Below are positions 24,629-55,729 of a stretch of DNA of 64,000 nt, piece by piece. Positions within the stretch are counted from its first letter, which is position 1. Every line of letters begins with the position of its first letter. Under the pieces are notes generated by a model. The model had not been told where the DNA came from and made no database searches. It saw only the letters and a list, made by a program, of their open reading frames with translations. Source of the stretch: Kosakonia oryzae (GTDB lineage: Bacteria > Pseudomonadota > Gammaproteobacteria > Enterobacterales > Enterobacteriaceae); the NCBI RefSeq assembly GCF_001658025.2, contig NZ_CP014007.2:4464001-4528000 (forward strand). The letters are read 5' to 3'. The position numbers and the translations under genes are program-made.

Positions 24629-25777
24629 TTAGTCCGCTTGCTTACGCAGGAACGCCGGAATATCCAGATAATCAGGTTCTTTAGTGGTTTGCGGCGTATT
24701 ATCGTTAACCACTTTCGCTGGTTTCTGCTCCTGTTGCATCGGCTGCATACCATGCTGCTGATAGCGATCCATCACTGGCTGCTGTGCCTGTTTGTTAGTC
24801 ACCAGCGTGATTTCCGGACGTTTGTCCATGCCGATACCTGTCGCAACAACGGTCACACGCAGCTCATCGTTCATATCCGGATCAAGGGACGTACCGATAA
24901 CCACAGTCGCGTTATCAGATGCGAAAGCACGGATAGTGTTACCCACCGTTTCGAACTCATCCAGACGCAGGTCGAAGCCAGCAGTAATGTTAACCAGTAC
25001 ACCGCGAGCGCCAGAAAGATCAATATCTTCCAGCAGCGGGCTGGAAATCGCCATTTCTGCCGCTTCTTCCGCACGATCTTCACCGCTGGCTACACCGGAG
25101 CCCATCATCGCATAGCCCATTTCGGACATTACGGTGCGCACGTCAGCGAAGTCAACGTTCATCAGGCCTGGACGAGTAATCAGCTCAGCAATACCCTGCA
25201 CAGCGCCTTTCAGTACATCGTTCGCTGCACCGAATGCATCAAGCAGAGAAATGCCACGGCCAAGCACTTTCAGTAACTTGTCGTTCGGGATAGTGATCAG
25301 CGAGTCCACATGTTTGGACAGCTCAGTGATACCCTGCTCAGCAAATGCCATGCGCTTCTTGCCTTCAAAATTGAAAGGCTTAGTCACCACAGCAACCGTC
25401 AGGATACCTAAATCTTTAGCGACTTCAGCCACGACAGGAGCCGCACCCGTACCGGTACCACCACCCATGCCTGCCGCGATAAAGACCATGTCAGCGCCTT
25501 CGAGCGCAGCGCGCAGGGCTTCACGATCTTCTTCAGCCGCATTGCGACCAACTTCAGGGTTTGCTCCAGCGCCCAGACCTTTAGTGATGCCACCGCCGAT
25601 CTGAATGGTTTGTCCCACCGCTGTTTTACGCAACGCCTGCGCGTCGGTATTCACGGCGAAGAATTCCACACCCTCAATGCGCTCGCGCACCATATGCTCT
25701 ACGGCGTTGCCACCGCCGCCACCGACGCCGATGACTTTAATCACCGCGTCGTTGGTTAATTCCATCGGTTCAAACAT
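24629..25777 (-). CDS. ftsZ: Cell division GTPase FtsZ
   Basis: FtsZ is a tubulin homologue that assembles into the Z ring at midcell. It has 382 residues. The GTP-binding signature GGGTGTG is at residues 105-111, and the T7 synergy-loop region ([15 protein letters not shown]) is present. A variable Gln/Pro-rich linker ([19 protein letters not shown]) leads to the conserved C-terminal peptide [14 protein letters not shown], which binds FtsA, ZipA and ZapD. It lies 63 nt downstream of ftsA and is followed by lpxC. In E. coli it has several promoters inside ftsQ and ftsA; I have not tried to place them here. Confidence 0.98.
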
Positions 25778-25840
25778 AATTTCTCTCCGTTTTGTGCCTG
25801 TCGCCTGAGACCGCTAATTTTCTGCGCTCTCTGAAAAAAA

Positions 25841-27097
25841 TTAAAACTCTTTTCGCAGCCAGCTGTTGATTCGTTTGAACCATGACCCTACTGACGCGCG
25901 TTTTTCCACTTCTGCTTCACCACTGAGATGCGTCTCTTTTCCGTAGTGCAGCAACCCTACAGCCGTTGAGTAATACGGCTCCTGGGCATAATCGGTCAAG
26001 CCAGTAATGTTGAGCGGCGCACCAATACGCACCTGCGTATGGAAAACGCGCTGTGCACAGGCCGCAAGGCCTTCCATTTGCGCCGCGCCGCCGGTCAACA
26101 CAATCCCCGCCGCCAGGTGATGCTTAACACCCTGCTGGCGAAGCTGTTCCTGCAACTGCAAAATCTCATCGTTAACCAGATTGAGCAACTCGGTATAGCG
26201 AGGCTCAATCACGTCTGCCAGCGTCTGACGCTGCAAACTGCGCGGCGGACGACCACCCACGCTGGGTACTTCAACGCTTTCATCTTTACCGACTAACGAC
26301 CCCAGCGCACAACCGTGGCGAACTTTGATCGCCTCTGCATCACTGGGCGGCGTACCGAAAGCGTAAGCAATATCGCTAGTGACCACGTTCCCTGCATAAG
26401 GGATTACTTTCGTGTGGCGCAGCGCGCCGCCAGTATAGACCGCCATGTCCATTGTACCACCACCGATGTCAACAACGCAGACGCCCAGTTCTCGTTCGTC
26501 TTCCGTCAACACCGAATAGCTGGAGGCCAGTCCGGCGAAAATAAGTTGGTCAACTTTCAACCCACATCGTTCAACGGCTTTAACGATGTTTTTTGCCATA
26601 TCGTTATGGCAAGTAATCAAATGTACTTTTGCCTGCATACGTACGCCAGACAGCCCAACCGGGTTTTTGATCCCTTCCTGGTAGTCAATGGCGTATTCCT
26701 GCGGAATCACATGCAGAACACGGTGTTCATCGCGTACACGCACCGATTTGGCGGTATGCACAACGTTCTCTACATCTTCCTGCGTCACTTCCTCTTCCGA
26801 AATCGGCACCATCCCAATTTCGTTCTGGCAGCTAATGTGCTTCCCCGAAAGCGCCAGGTAGACAGAAGAGATCTGGCAATCCGCCATCAATTCAGCCTGA
26901 TCGATAGCGCGCTGTACGCATTTCACTACCGATTCCAGATCGTTCACGCCGCCTTTATCCATACCACGAGACGGGCAACTGCCCACGCCAATGATATTCA
27001 CAATACCGTCGGGCAGAACTTCCCCTACTAAAGCGGCTACCTTCGCGGTGCCAATCTCCAGTCCAACCACCAGTTTTCTGTCCGTCGCCTTGATCAT
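25841..27097 (-). CDS. ftsA: Cell division protein FtsA
   Basis: FtsA is an actin-like ATPase that ties FtsZ filaments to the inner membrane and recruits later division proteins. It has 418 residues, two fewer than E. coli from a small gap before the C-terminal helix. The nucleotide-binding blocks are [16 protein letters not shown] at the N-terminus, [15 protein letters not shown] in the middle and [14 protein letters not shown] later. The C-terminal amphipathic membrane-targeting helix ([15 protein letters not shown]) is intact. The start overlaps the ftsQ stop by four bases. Confidence 0.97.
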
Positions 27098-52304: not shown

Positions 52305-53480
52305 TCACACATTCTTCACGCGGCTGGTCAGCAGCAGCGCCGCCACGGAAATCGCCGCAATCCCCACGTACACCGCCCCGTGACTAAAACTCTGCGCCAA
52401 CGCGCCCTGAATCACCCCGGCAAGAATCACCCCGGTTGAAATACTGTTAGTAAACAGTGTTGTCGCCGAACCGGCACGCCCCGGCATTAAATCCTGAAAC
52501 CACAGCATGCCGATACCGGCGACGATACCGATGAAGATTGCATTGAACAGTTGCAGCACCAGCAGCGCCGTCTGGCTGTGGAAGAAGATCAGCCCCAGAT
52601 AAAACACCACGCCTGCAGCAACGGCTGCCAACATCATCCGCCGCTTGCCCAGGCGTTTAACAAAATACCCGGCCAGGATCATCGCCGGGATCTCCAGGCC
52701 CGCCGCAGTGCCCATCAGGATCCCGGCGAGTTTATCCGGCAGCCCCAGCTCCTGGCTAATCCACAGAGGCATGTCGATGATGTACATGGTGTTGCAGGTC
52801 CACATCAGCGTTGAGGCGATAAACAGCATGCGCACGTTCTTATCGCCCCAGCCGCTCACTTCCGTCACTGCGACAGCGGGTTGCGCCACGCGCGGCACCG
52901 AGGGCAGCCAGAAGGCAATCATCACCAGGCTTACCACAAAAAGCCCGGCGGCAATGGTGAACATAGCAGTAAAGCCGTAATTGAGCGCCAGCATAAACGC
53001 CAGCGGCGGGCCAATCACCCACGCCAGCGAGAGCTGCGCACGCATCACCGAACTGAACATCACCACTTCCCGCGCGGAGCTGTCGGCATATTCGCGCGCC
53101 AGCGCAAAGAGTTGCGGCATCGCGGTATTGGCGAGCGAGGCCAGCAGCACGCCGCAGGTGATAAGCGTCAGATAGTGACGATTGAAGGCAAACAATAGCG
53201 CGTTGCCCACCGCCATCAGGCAACAAAAGAGGATCAGCTTGCGACGATCGCCCTGATTATCGGAACGTTTTGCCAGCCACAGGCTGACCAGGATCCCGGC
53301 TACCGCGTTGACGGTATAAAACAGCCCGATCCAGAAAGGCTGCGCCCCCACTTCGCGGCTGAGAAACAGGCTCAGCGTCGGCGCCTGCACCGCGCCGGCA
53401 ACGCCCATCATAAACGCAACGATCATAAAAGCGATGTAAACACCGTTGAGACGACGTCCCATCGTCATTAACCAGAGCAT
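52305..53480 (-). CDS. setA: Sugar efflux transporter SetA
   Basis: SetA is an MFS transporter of the SET family that exports glucose and lactose analogues; it is part of the glucose-phosphate stress response. It has 391 residues from the ATG at 53478-53480 (MLWLMTMGRRLNGVYIAF), which matches E. coli and has GGAAA 5 nt upstream. Typical blocks are QAPTLSLFLSREVGAQPFWIG and LTLITCGVLLASLANTAMPQ. The frame stays open for 54 codons upstream, but those codons run through the sgrS terminator and a repeat element and are not coding. In E. coli setA is cotranscribed with sgrS/sgrT; here the intervening element may weaken that. Confidence 0.94.
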   Translation of the reverse strand: MLWLMTMGRRLNGVYIAFMIVAFMMGVAGAVQAPTLSLFLSREVGAQPFWIGLFYTVNAVAGILVSLWLAKRSDNQGDRRKLILFCCLMAVGNALLFAFNRHYLTLITCGVLLASLANTAMPQLFALAREYADSSAREVVMFSSVMRAQLSLAWVIGPPLAFMLALNYGFTAMFTIAAGLFVVSLVMIAFWLPSVPRVAQPAVAVTEVSGWGDKNVRMLFIASTLMWTCNTMYIIDMPLWISQELGLPDKLAGILMGTAAGLEIPAMILAGYFVKRLGKRRMMLAAVAAGVVFYLGLIFFHSQTALLVLQLFNAIFIGIVAGIGMLWFQDLMPGRAGSATTLFTNSISTGVILAGVIQGALAQSFSHGAVYVGIAAISVAALLLTSRVKNV

Positions 53481-53526
53481 GAACGTTTCCTTTTCAAAAG
53501 CAGTAAAAGCCGCTGAAATCATAAAC

Positions 53527-53557
53527 GAAAAAAGCCAGCAAAAAATGTTTTGCTGGC
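53527..53557 (-). terminator. Distal intrinsic terminator of sgrS
   Basis: On the minus strand GCCAGCAAAA pairs with TTTTGCTGGC (10 bp) around a short loop, followed by TTTTTTCG. CACCCGCCAGCA preceding it matches the E. coli sgrS 3' end as I remember it, so this is the original SgrS terminator, now displaced by the element at 53567-53800. Confidence 0.85.
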
Positions 53558-53566
53558 GGGTGCAAG

Positions 53567-53800
53567 AGGCTGTATCCCACAATATCATTTGACGGCGACG
53601 CTGAGCCAAAAAAGCGTAATCAAGGCGGAGGGCGCAGGACATAGCGGGACTATGTTCAAGCCTGACAACGCAGAGTACGCTTTTTTAGCACGCGTCCCGA
53701 AGGGCTGGGGCTTTTTTTGCACATTACTGCGTTACTCGCGCCTTGTCCTGTGCAAAAAAAGCCGCCAGCGACGTACAGATGATATTGTGGGATACAGCCT
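53567..53800. mobile_element. 234-bp MITE-like multi-arm palindromic element inside sgrS
   Basis: The element is bounded by perfect 22-bp terminal inverted repeats, 53567-53588 (beginning AGGCTGTATCCCACAATA) and 53779-53800. Inside are two further exact inverted repeats: AAAAAAGCGTA (53608-53618) with TACGCTTTTTT (53676-53686), and GGCTTTTTTTGCACA (53709-53723) with TGTGCAAAAAAAGCC (53749-53763), plus small hairpins such as ACATAG/CTATGT and CCCGAAGGG. Parts of the two arms also complement each other (CAAGGCG/CGCCTTG, AACGCAG/CTGCGTT). It has no coding potential and no clear target-site duplication. The structure is that of a non-autonomous, transposon-derived or REP/ERIC-like intergenic repeat. 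I do not recognise the family. Confidence 0.8.
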
Positions 53801-53833
53801 ACACAATACTCAGTCACACATGATGGCCGCGAT

Positions 53834-53986
53834 TCAGTCCTTCGAGATCGGCGTTGTCACTTCCCACTGCATCAGTTCTTCCAGCATTTTCAGGCGCTGC
53901 CCTGCACTCTGACGGGCGAGCCAGCACACATCCTGCGTGGCGCGAAAATAAGCCAGATAAAACCGTCGTATGGATGATCTCTGCAT
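53834..53986 (-). CDS. sgrT: SgrT, glucose uptake inhibitor peptide encoded in SgrS
   Basis: SgrT binds the glucose permease EIICB-Glc and blocks sugar uptake. The ORF has 50 residues, beginning MQRSSIRRFYLAYFRATQDV and continuing CWLARQSAGQRLKMLEELMQ to WEVTTPISKD. It aligns with the 43-residue E. coli SgrT (RxFYxxYF, CWL, QRLxMLExLMQW). It has a seven-residue longer N-terminus and a different tail. The ribosome site AGGAGGTG is near-perfect and 3-10 nt before the ATG, stronger than I remember for E. coli. It lies in the 5' half of sgrS, upstream of the repeat element, so it should be unaffected by it. Confidence 0.9.
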   Translation of the reverse strand: MQRSSIRRFYLAYFRATQDVCWLARQSAGQRLKMLEELMQWEVTTPISKD

Positions 53987-54073
53987 ACCACCTCCTCGCT
54001 TTCATCGAAGAGAAGTATTGGCTTAATATAGGGATAAATAAATTGCTGAGTTTTTATCAGGAGTTCCCCTTTT

Positions 54074-55729
54074 ATGTCCTCTGGCCGCCTGCAACAGCAG
54101 TTCATCCGTTTGTGGCAATGCTGCGACGGAAAATCCCAGGAAACCACGCTTAATGAGCTGGCCGAACTGCTCAGTTGCTCGCGCCGTCATATGCGCACGC
54201 TGCTGAATACCATGCAGGAGCGCGGCTGGCTGACATGGGATGCGGAAGCAGGGCGCGGCAAGCGTTCGCGCCTGACGTTCCTCTATACCGGGCTGGCGCT
54301 CCAGCAGCAACGGGCAGAGGATCTGCTGGAGCAGGATCGTATCGATCAGTTGGTTCAACTGGTGGGCGATAAAGAAGCCGTCCGCCAGATGCTGGTTTCC
54401 CATCTTGGACGCACCTTTCGCCAGGGGCGACATATCCTGCGCGTGCTCTATTATCGCCCGCTGCGCAACCTGCTACCGGGCACGCCCTTGCGACGCTCCG
54501 AAACCCATATGGCGCGGCAAATCTTCAGCGCGTTGACGCGCATAAATGAGGAAAATGGGGAACTGGAAGCGGATATCGCTCATCACTGGAAGGCGATTTC
54601 CCCTTTACACTGGCGTTTTTATTTACGCCCTGGCATCCACTTTCATAACGGCCGCGAGCTGGAAATGAGCGATGTGATTGCGTCCCTGCAACGGGCAACC
54701 GCCCTGCCGCTCTATTCGCATATCCGCGAGGTCGTCTCTCCAACCCCCTGGACGCTGGATATTCATCTCTGGCAGCCGGATAACTGGCTCCCCTGGTTGA
54801 TGGGGCATGTGCCCTCCATGATCCTGCCGCAAAAGTGGAACACTCTCCCCCATTTCTCCAGCCAGCCGATTGGCACCGGCCCGTATGCCGTGGTGCGCAA
54901 TACCAATAACCAATTAAAAATTCATGCCTTTGATGACTATTTCGGCTTCCGTGCCCTGATTGATGAAGTGAATGTCTGGGTGCTGCCGGATCTCAGCGAC
55001 GATCCAACCTGCGGGCTGACGCTGGAGGGGCCAACCGGCGATGAAAAAGCGGTCGAAAGCCGCCTGGAAGAGGGCTGCTACTATCTGCTGTTTGACGCGC
55101 GTTCCAGCCGCGGTGCCAGCCCGGCGGTCAGGGAGTGGGTAAGCCAGATCCTCTCCCCCGCCAGCCTGTTATGGCATGCTGACGAGCGCTACCAACGTTA
55201 CTGGTTCCCGGCCTACGGCCTGCTGCCGCACTGGCATCATGCCCGTCCCGGCGTCGGCGAGAAGCCTGCCGGGCTGGAATCCCTGACGCTCACCTTCTAT
55301 CGCGAACACAACGAGCACGAGGCGCTCTCCCGTATCATGAGCGACTTACTGGCAGAACAGGGGGTAAAACTTCATGTACAAAGGGTGGAGTACGCCGAGT
55401 GGCACCGGGGTGAAGCGACCAGCGACCTGTGGCTGAACAGCGCTAACTTTACCCTGCCGCTCAACTTCTCGGTCTTTGCCAACCTGTATGAAGTGCCGTT
55501 GTTGCAGCACTGTATTCCGATCGACTGGCAGGCCGCCGCTACCGAGTGGCGTGCCGGGAAGATGAACCTCGCCGCCTGGTCTCAGCAGTTACTGGCCAGT
55601 AAAGCGATGGTGCCATTAATCCATCACTGGCTAAGGATCCAGGGGCAGCGCAGTATGCGCGGGCTGCGCATGAATACGCTGGGCTGGTTTGACTTTAAAT
55701 CGGCCTGGTATGCGCCGCCCGATCCATAA
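54074..55729 (+). CDS. sgrR: Transcriptional activator SgrR
   Basis: SgrR activates sgrS in response to sugar-phosphate stress. It has 551 residues, as in E. coli. The N-terminal helix-turn-helix region is [20 protein letters not shown] with [20 protein letters not shown]; the rest resembles oligopeptide-type periplasmic solute-binding proteins without a signal peptide ([39 protein letters not shown]). It is divergent from sgrS; the 67-bp gap should hold SgrR sites for both promoters. The thi operon follows in the same direction. Confidence 0.95.

Follow-up and report, generated by a model that had tools for sequence, protein, structure and literature searches.

Bacterial MITEs such as Correia/NEMIS, RUP and ERIC are short elements that carry no transposase gene and are bounded by terminal inverted repeats. 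They have TA ends, duplicate a TA target, occur dispersed, share an end type with an IS and are mostly genus- or family-level repeats (PMC10969869, PMC2229807). A Correia MITE in a host mRNA is cleaved by RNase III (PMC10969869). Among other palindromic repeats of enterobacteria, the published lengths are 20 to 40 bp for REPs (PMC3733652) and 127 bp for RU-1, 168 bp for RU-2 and 103 bp for RU-3 (PMC2759123, PMC2229807). YPAL/RU-2 has internal repeats and lacks the TA ends that ERIC, too, possesses (PMC2229807), and PU-BIME, ERIC and BoxC are known in E. coli (PMC2267715). The small RNA SgrS is relevant here as the host of such a repeat. Most SgrS homologues have an extra stem-loop ahead of the terminator, and both matter for Hfq binding (PMC4021124); PMC5558911 and PMC4509938 cite Ishikawa 2012 for the Hfq-binding module of SgrS.

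In this study, we analyzed a 64,000-nt stretch of the genome of Kosakonia oryzae (the window), in which a 234-bp branched palindrome lies inside sgrS. Like other bacterial MITEs (PMC10969869, PMC2229807), the family to which it belongs is short, lacks a transposase gene, has terminal inverted repeats, is dispersed, shows TA ends with a TA duplication at four of five K. oryziphila sites and, in one lineage, has an end type in common with an IS. It differs from these MITEs in that its members measure about 267 bp and share a branched interior, conserved and made of two long arms and a mini-hairpin, and in having one recognizable core across a phylum, the ends varying between lineages while the core stays. 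We are strongly inclined to conclude that sgrS has received the 234 bp by insertion of a MITE-like, non-autonomous element in this lineage and that its family is likely moved in trans by IS5-type enzymes. The features of the locus are as follows.

52305..53480, minus strand: setA, downstream of sgrS (open reading frame list; setA-sgrT-sgrR synteny in E. coli)
53528..54006, minus strand: sgrS with its insertion, from the 5' end at 54006 through the terminator hairpin (53557-53534) to the end of the T-run at 53528 (Rfam RF00534 and terminator scan)
53567..53800, no strand: inserted branched palindromic element, 234 bp (inverted repeats, folding z, absence in relatives, homologues elsewhere)
53567..53591, plus strand: left terminal inverted repeat, forming the closing helix P1
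53597..53696: arm 1 (consensus helices 2-4) with the conserved internal motif CAAGGC...AACGCAG; limits approximate
53696..53704: junction mini-hairpin CCC-GAA-GGG (consensus helix CCC/GGG)
53704..53769: arm 2, about 34 nt shorter than the family arm 2; limits approximate
53776..53800, plus strand: right terminal inverted repeat (inverted-repeat search)
53801..53824, minus strand: SgrS pairing region, intact and adjoining the element; GTGTGACTGAGTATTG on the minus strand (Rfam alignment)
53834..53986, minus strand: sgrT-like open reading frame of 50 aa, intact (open reading frame list, translation)
54074..55729, plus strand: sgrR, the divergent regulator gene (open reading frame list; synteny)

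A first-pass annotation had placed the element inside an otherwise conserved small RNA gene. The gene is indeed sgrS, which Rfam (RF00534) matches on the minus strand at 54006-53754 with 85.8 bits; the element does not lie in its conserved part but in the variable loop of a small hairpin beside the terminator. Read from the 5' end, SgrS consists of the sgrT-like open reading frame, which we take to be SgrT from its resemblance and position, the pairing region, the element, and a terminator hairpin with a T-run. The stretch CTCAGTCACAC of the pairing region is present in 14 other Kosakonia genomes as well. The 3' end of the Rfam match enters the element, where three of the eight pairs of the supposed terminator stem are non-standard. 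The hairpin at 53557-53534 with T6, beyond the element, is the only terminator-like site that the terminator scan found on the minus strand in 53450-54200. Because of the non-standard pairs and because no terminator-like site was found there, we doubted the Rfam 3' end at 53754 and regard the hairpin at 53557-53534 as the likely terminator of SgrS, although early termination may occur at a U7 run near 53754, inside the element. Since the pairing region and the terminator both lie outside the element, the basic SgrS layout of pairing region, hairpin and terminator is kept. In the mechanical open reading frame list, an in-frame ATG from the element, upstream of setA, extends setA by window 53481-53642 to a frame of 445 aa at 52305-53642, which is probably meaningless.

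The 234 bp is an insertion relative to all close relatives that were compared. The sgrR-sgrS region occurs in 15 of 15 Kosakonia genomes, and in the 14 others sgrS has no element, the terminator standing about 50 nt from the pairing region; two of these empty genes are 98% identical to the window across the adjacent 445 bp. Where the nearest relatives read GGGTGCATTCGCACTTAATACTCAG, the window reads GGGTGCAAG, then AGGCTG...CAGCCT, then ACACAATACTCAG, and the insertion hit the loop of the small hairpin ahead of the sgrS terminator. The junctions are CC|TA on the right and GA|GG on the left, with no clean TA duplication, and the flanks there are unlike those of all relatives, so a target duplication cannot be read at sgrS. 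A pattern search found the element in the congeners K. quasisacchari, K. pseudosacchari and K. oryziphila. The last has five full copies at five sites, each with different neighbor genes: one presumably beside a pstS-like gene and others between what we take, from their flanks, to be cpdA/yqiA-, moaE/ybhL- and acpS/yfhL-like genes, while the neighbors of the fifth have no assigned name. Six other Kosakonia supplied 29 loci for comparison with these five sites, and all 28 that were compared lack the element. Four of the sites show a single TA where the element is missing (TG in one of the 28 loci) and, where it is present, a TA flanking GG...CC at either end; the remaining site is ambiguous. 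The check for a target-site duplication proposed in the first-pass annotation thus gave TA at four of the five K. oryziphila sites and no clean duplication at sgrS. If TA is the target rule, the element proper is 53568-53799 (GG...CC).

The multiple copies sought by that annotation are not seen in the genome of the window, in which blastn and a covariance model both found one copy only. With no second copy, there is no local parent, and we infer that the window copy arrived by transfer or from a parent copy since lost. The single copy is the one point in favor of treating the 234 bp as a lineage-specific part of sgrS and not as an insertion. Such a reading would require presence in sgrS of all relatives and nowhere else; both halves are contradicted, by absence from sgrS in 14 of 14 relatives and by copies elsewhere in other genomes, and we give it almost no credence. 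Only marginally better placed is an assignment to the REP/BIME or ERIC/RU type, which the earlier choice of "MITE or REP/ERIC-like" had kept in play. ERIC/RU-1, YPAL/RU-2, RU-3 and REP/BIME are likewise palindromic repeats of enterobacteria, and ERIC also has TA ends (PMC2229807). However, their lengths (PMC3733652, PMC2759123, PMC2229807) differ from that of the element, and the element had no match in 5,426 E. coli genomes (blastn, E ≤ 1e-5), whereas ERIC, RU-3 and REP/BIME are known in that species, as are PU-BIME and BoxC (PMC2267715). REP/BIME, made of hairpin units in high copy, was therefore rejected for an element of 234 to 268 bp with one copy in its own genome, and ERIC/RU-1, RU-3 and BoxC for the lack of a match in the same E. 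coli search. YPAL/RU-2 was rejected because the element has terminal repeats, with TA at insertions of its sister copies; this comparison was made from the published properties of YPAL. The MITE half of the earlier choice is the one that agrees with the dispersal, the empty sites, TA at four of five sites and the end type shared with an IS5-family IS in another lineage.

The architecture proposed in the first pass was borne out. Its coordinates, 53567-53800, are correct to about one base. The perfect 22-bp terminal inverted repeats are the exact outer part of repeats of 25 nt with 96% complementarity, the exact 15-bp inverted repeat is found at 53709-53723 / 53749-53763, and the exact 11-bp repeat belongs to a 17-nt repeat at 53605-53621 / 53673-53689 (88%). 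The expected branched folding was also recovered, both strands giving a similar branched figure in prediction: the predicted folding energy is -122.4 kcal/mol on the minus strand (shuffle mean -68.6; z -13.0) and -127.6 kcal/mol on the plus strand (shuffle mean -69.8; z -11.5), and none of 200 dinucleotide shuffles folded as well. The 234 bp contains no transposase gene and is overlapped by mechanical open reading frames only. The window copy is short of 34 nt of arm 2, a stretch that is bounded by CTCGCG direct repeats in a full-length relative. An origin of the arms by duplication was not supported: in a search for homology between the two arms, only one of eight copies beat all 300 shuffles, and it is the alignment alone that shows the mirrored motif.

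The family extends far beyond Kosakonia. The full enteric element measures 264-268 bp, about 267 bp, and typically reads AGGCTGTGTCCC...GGGACACAGCCT. By blastn, 12 of 97 genomes matched at E ≤ 0.01, the own genome included; eight of the 11 others had long matches (121-151 nt, 76-85% identical) and three had short ones only. At the family level, 23 of 392 genomes matched at E ≤ 1e-6, again with the own genome. An exact core pattern was found in Serratia, Salmonella arizonae and diarizonae, Raoultella, Enterobacter, Citrobacter and Intestinirhabdus, and a plasmid of Citrobacter braakii carries a copy. In I. alba, the end motif occurs 68 times against 0 for its reversed control; seven pairs of the motif span exactly 267 bp and three only 61 bp. 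A covariance model (R1), made from 32 full enteric copies with their predicted pairing, matched 8 of 15 genomes in the genus sample, 46 of 295 in the order sample and 55 of 299 in the phylum sample, the last two sets of matches each covering 14 families; the own genome is included in all three counts. Most of the matches listed cover the whole model, at about 260-272 bp; some in the order and phylum samples consist of one arm or of about 90-220 bp, and some exceed 300 bp. In the phylum sample, 36 of the 55 matching genomes belong to one family from a different class; its members have small genomes, and many of them carry several copies. The copy numbers are lower bounds because only part of the candidates in each genome was scored (8 in the 97-genome blastn search, 2 in the 392-genome search and 6 in the R1 searches of order and phylum), and the R1 loci lean toward well-paired copies because of the way in which the model was made. 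A sequence-only profile matched 19 of 19 order loci and 17 of 17 phylum loci, with no match in reversed controls, although this check is not fully independent, since its loci had been chosen by R1.

With a class-level copy as query, blastn found replicons of Azotobacter (2), Pseudomonas aeruginosa and Halomonas, 76-85% identical and none under a listed feature. Six public plasmid matches likewise had no annotated feature under the element, in a plasmid gene table that is incomplete. No Rfam 15 family matched the element above the gathering threshold; the 20 element loci searched gave only SgrS, the host gene, and one JUMPstart elsewhere. Therefore, many intergenic regions could be re-annotated. 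Viral contigs did not match a core pattern, and phages gave no match. Very short derivatives of about 54-122 bp, which retain the two ends and at most part of one arm, were seen at L121, L122 and L157 (around 940-1000), and one genome of the order had longer variants (L153, L154 and L155), with 315-383 bp between the outer end motifs and extra arm sequence.

The branched core carries compensatory changes. We examined two alignments: 32 copies, being the full-length ones among 43 distinct rows (the 11 omitted were partial or cut off), and 40 diverse copies from 52 sources, aligned by sequence alone (L131, L132, L134, L152, L156, L158, L206, L207, L208, L209, L218 and L223 were omitted). In the former, RNAalifold predicted 91 pairs, of which 48 are changed on both sides, and 97.2% of cells pair; the covariation score is 0.359, compared with 0.157 in shuffles and at most 0.067 with partners slid. 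Helix P1 of this set has 26 pairs, 18 of them changed on both sides, with 97.5% of cells paired. The 40-copy set shows compensatory changes at 77 of its 83 predicted pairs; 91.3% of cells are paired, with a covariation score of 0.766 (0.205 shuffled, at most 0.162 slid). The junction helix CCC/GGG is paired in 99.2% of its cells in the same set. The near-invariant letters are CAAGGC...AACG in arm 1, the mirror GCGTT...GCCTTG in arm 2 and CCC/GGG at the junction; this internal motif is nearly constant while the ends of the element vary between lineages.

How the core came to be conserved can be read in several ways. It may act in its own right, as a structured RNA or as folded DNA, having been selected for that function and become mobile only secondarily. 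The lengths of about 260-272 bp in most full matches listed across the phylum would agree with this, as would the compensation in 77 of 83 pairs, the near-invariance of CAAGGC...AACG while the ends change, and the ugpE-ugpC copies described below, in which the element is better conserved than the ugpE flank. However, the motif stands on opposite strands in the two arms, which a DNA-level or strand-symmetric feature would explain better than one RNA would; in K. oryziphila the copies adjoin different genes, and Rfam 15 gave no family for the element. We hold a selected function of this kind to be rather unlikely. Alternatively, the compensatory changes could stem from templated repair of long palindromes, one arm being copied onto the other, and not from structural selection. 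Templated repair is a known mutational process in quasi-palindromes. All long helices of the element behave alike, the 22-bp ends are exact even in a copy short of 34 arm nucleotides, and further pair types in the 32-copy set do not exceed those of shuffles (86 versus 90.9; 492 of 500 shuffles were as high), all of which speak for arm copying. In contrast, the near-invariant internal-loop motifs and the near-constant length are not explained by it, and in the 40-copy set all five covariation measures lie above all 500 shuffles. Templated repair as the source of the changes is therefore a reading we regard as doubtful. We also put forward, as a tentative proposal, that the elements form a hitherto undescribed, phylum-wide class of non-autonomous mobile DNA. 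A factor of the host or of transposition would recognize its conserved cruciform-like core, with mirrored CAAGGC...AACG motifs and a CCC-NNN-GGG hairpin, in the form of folded or strand-symmetric DNA; different IS ends would have been acquired or evolved repeatedly, and some copies would have been domesticated (ugpE-ugpC) and one accommodated in a small RNA.

The ends of the elements point to their putative helper. End types differ by lineage (AGGCTGTGTCCC, GGGYSTGTTKAYSTTT, AGAGCCTGTCTCATAA, TACCCAAGC and AGGGGGCGTTCTCAATT), and for the type GGGYSTGTTKAYSTTT none of the 13 genomes searched contained the reversed control. This end type bounds, as inverted TAGGGCGTGTTGATCTTT ends, a complete 882-bp IS in a genome from the order sample (G257); the IS has CTAG, hence TA, on both sides and encodes a 252-aa transposase of the IS5 family (NCBIfam transpos_IS5_3, NF033580, 272 bits; Pfam DDE_Tnp_1). 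A palindromic element of a different genome (L138) begins with exactly the letters of the IS end, GGGCGTGTTGATCTTT, and the ends of elements within G257 depart from it at 1-3 of 16 letters. The element differs from the IS5 family in being palindromic and without a transposase gene; only the ends were seen to be common, and no such IS was seen in Kosakonia. This common end type argues for mobilization by IS5-type transposases, at least in the lineage of G257, and, judged from the sequences, the elements are likely moved in trans by IS5-type DDE transposases that recognize their ends. At L152:793-1674, the 882-bp IS seems to have inserted itself into a palindromic element with another end type, TACCCA.

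Among 12 IS5_3 loci inspected for their ends, a full matching pair was found at L159, in G257. Degenerate similar ends surround decayed IS5_3 copies in the same genome (L167 and L171), and one matching end lies beside a partial IS5_3 gene in each of two further genomes (L162 and L172). Different ends were seen at L160/L168, L161 and L165, and no matching ones at L163, L166 and L173, so other IS5_3 elements have unrelated ends; these include loci in genomes G071 and G194, which carry the palindromic element. In genome G003, the ends of an IS5_3 match are presumably those of IS5 itself; they do not match the element. On the Citrobacter braakii plasmid, a nearby IS630-family gene was rejected as a helper, the best inverted repeats around it (13/18) being unlike the element ends. 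A search of 18 enteric genomes, run without a positive control, gave no related transposase, and the NF033580 profile gave two weak matches below the cut-off in eight enteric genomes, compared with five matches in the positive genome; these eight yielded no IS5_3 member whose ends match those of the element. No IS bearing the enteric end type of the window copy, AGGCTGTGTCCC, was found. Since no related transposase was found in Kosakonia or I. alba, the helper of the window's subfamily either escaped identification or has been lost; that an IS5-type enzyme moved the window copy is what we infer.

In the modeled SgrS transcript, a giant branched hairpin formed by the element takes the place of the loop in the small hairpin that precedes the terminator. 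The closing stem of the element continues the stem left from the hairpin, beside GUG/CAC, and in the predicted fold the pairing region does not pair with the element and the terminator hairpin forms as in a relative. A perfect RNA stem of 22 bp is a typical RNase III substrate. Cleavage of this stem by RNase III would part the pairing region from the Hfq-binding 3' end. The Correia element, whose terminal-repeat stem is cut by RNase III when transcribed (PMC10969869), offers a model for SgrS, with the difference that the host here is a small RNA and not an mRNA. On the grounds of the substrate stem and the Correia precedent, we lean slightly toward a reduction or loss of the base-pairing function of SgrS over tolerance. 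That SgrS tolerates the insertion would be a prospect with a little less than an even chance.

A further group of copies occupies one and the same position in several genera. In Salmonella arizonae, diarizonae, Citrobacter, Raoultella, Enterobacter 10-1 and five Kosakonia, a copy lies at the ugpE stop codon, just before ugpC, a site that is empty in the E. coli strain examined.

L086:4263-4530, L087:2363-2630, L098:7093-7359, L106:7651-7918, L108, L004-L008: ugpE-ugpC copies

In six between-genus pairs, the element is 91.8-95.9% identical, above the ugpE flank (84.3-87.1%), while the ugpC flank ranges from 82.2 to 92.6%. In a seventh pair, Enterobacter 10-1 and Raoultella, the element is 100% identical and the flanks 93.4 and 97.6%. 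The ugpE-ugpC copy looks like a domesticated element under purifying selection, and these copies hint at one-sided changes that are retained as G-T pairs until the opposite side changes as well.

The MITE kind is known; no description of this family was found in the open PMC literature, as searched by end sequences and family terms with partly weak coverage, nor one of the conserved branched core or the range of the family. A phylum-wide branched core of near-constant length with changing ends would imply either a host function or a structural need for mobilization. With its insertion, sgrS offers a natural experiment on the degree of change that the Hfq-binding 3' part of a small RNA tolerates, and the ugpE-ugpC copies are a testable candidate for domestication. 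Elsewhere in the window, positions 25769-25861 strongly match PssrA (109.9 bits); this Rfam family is described as a plasmid-encoded Shigella sRNA, and the match lies in the single 5.4-Mb contig of this Kosakonia genome.
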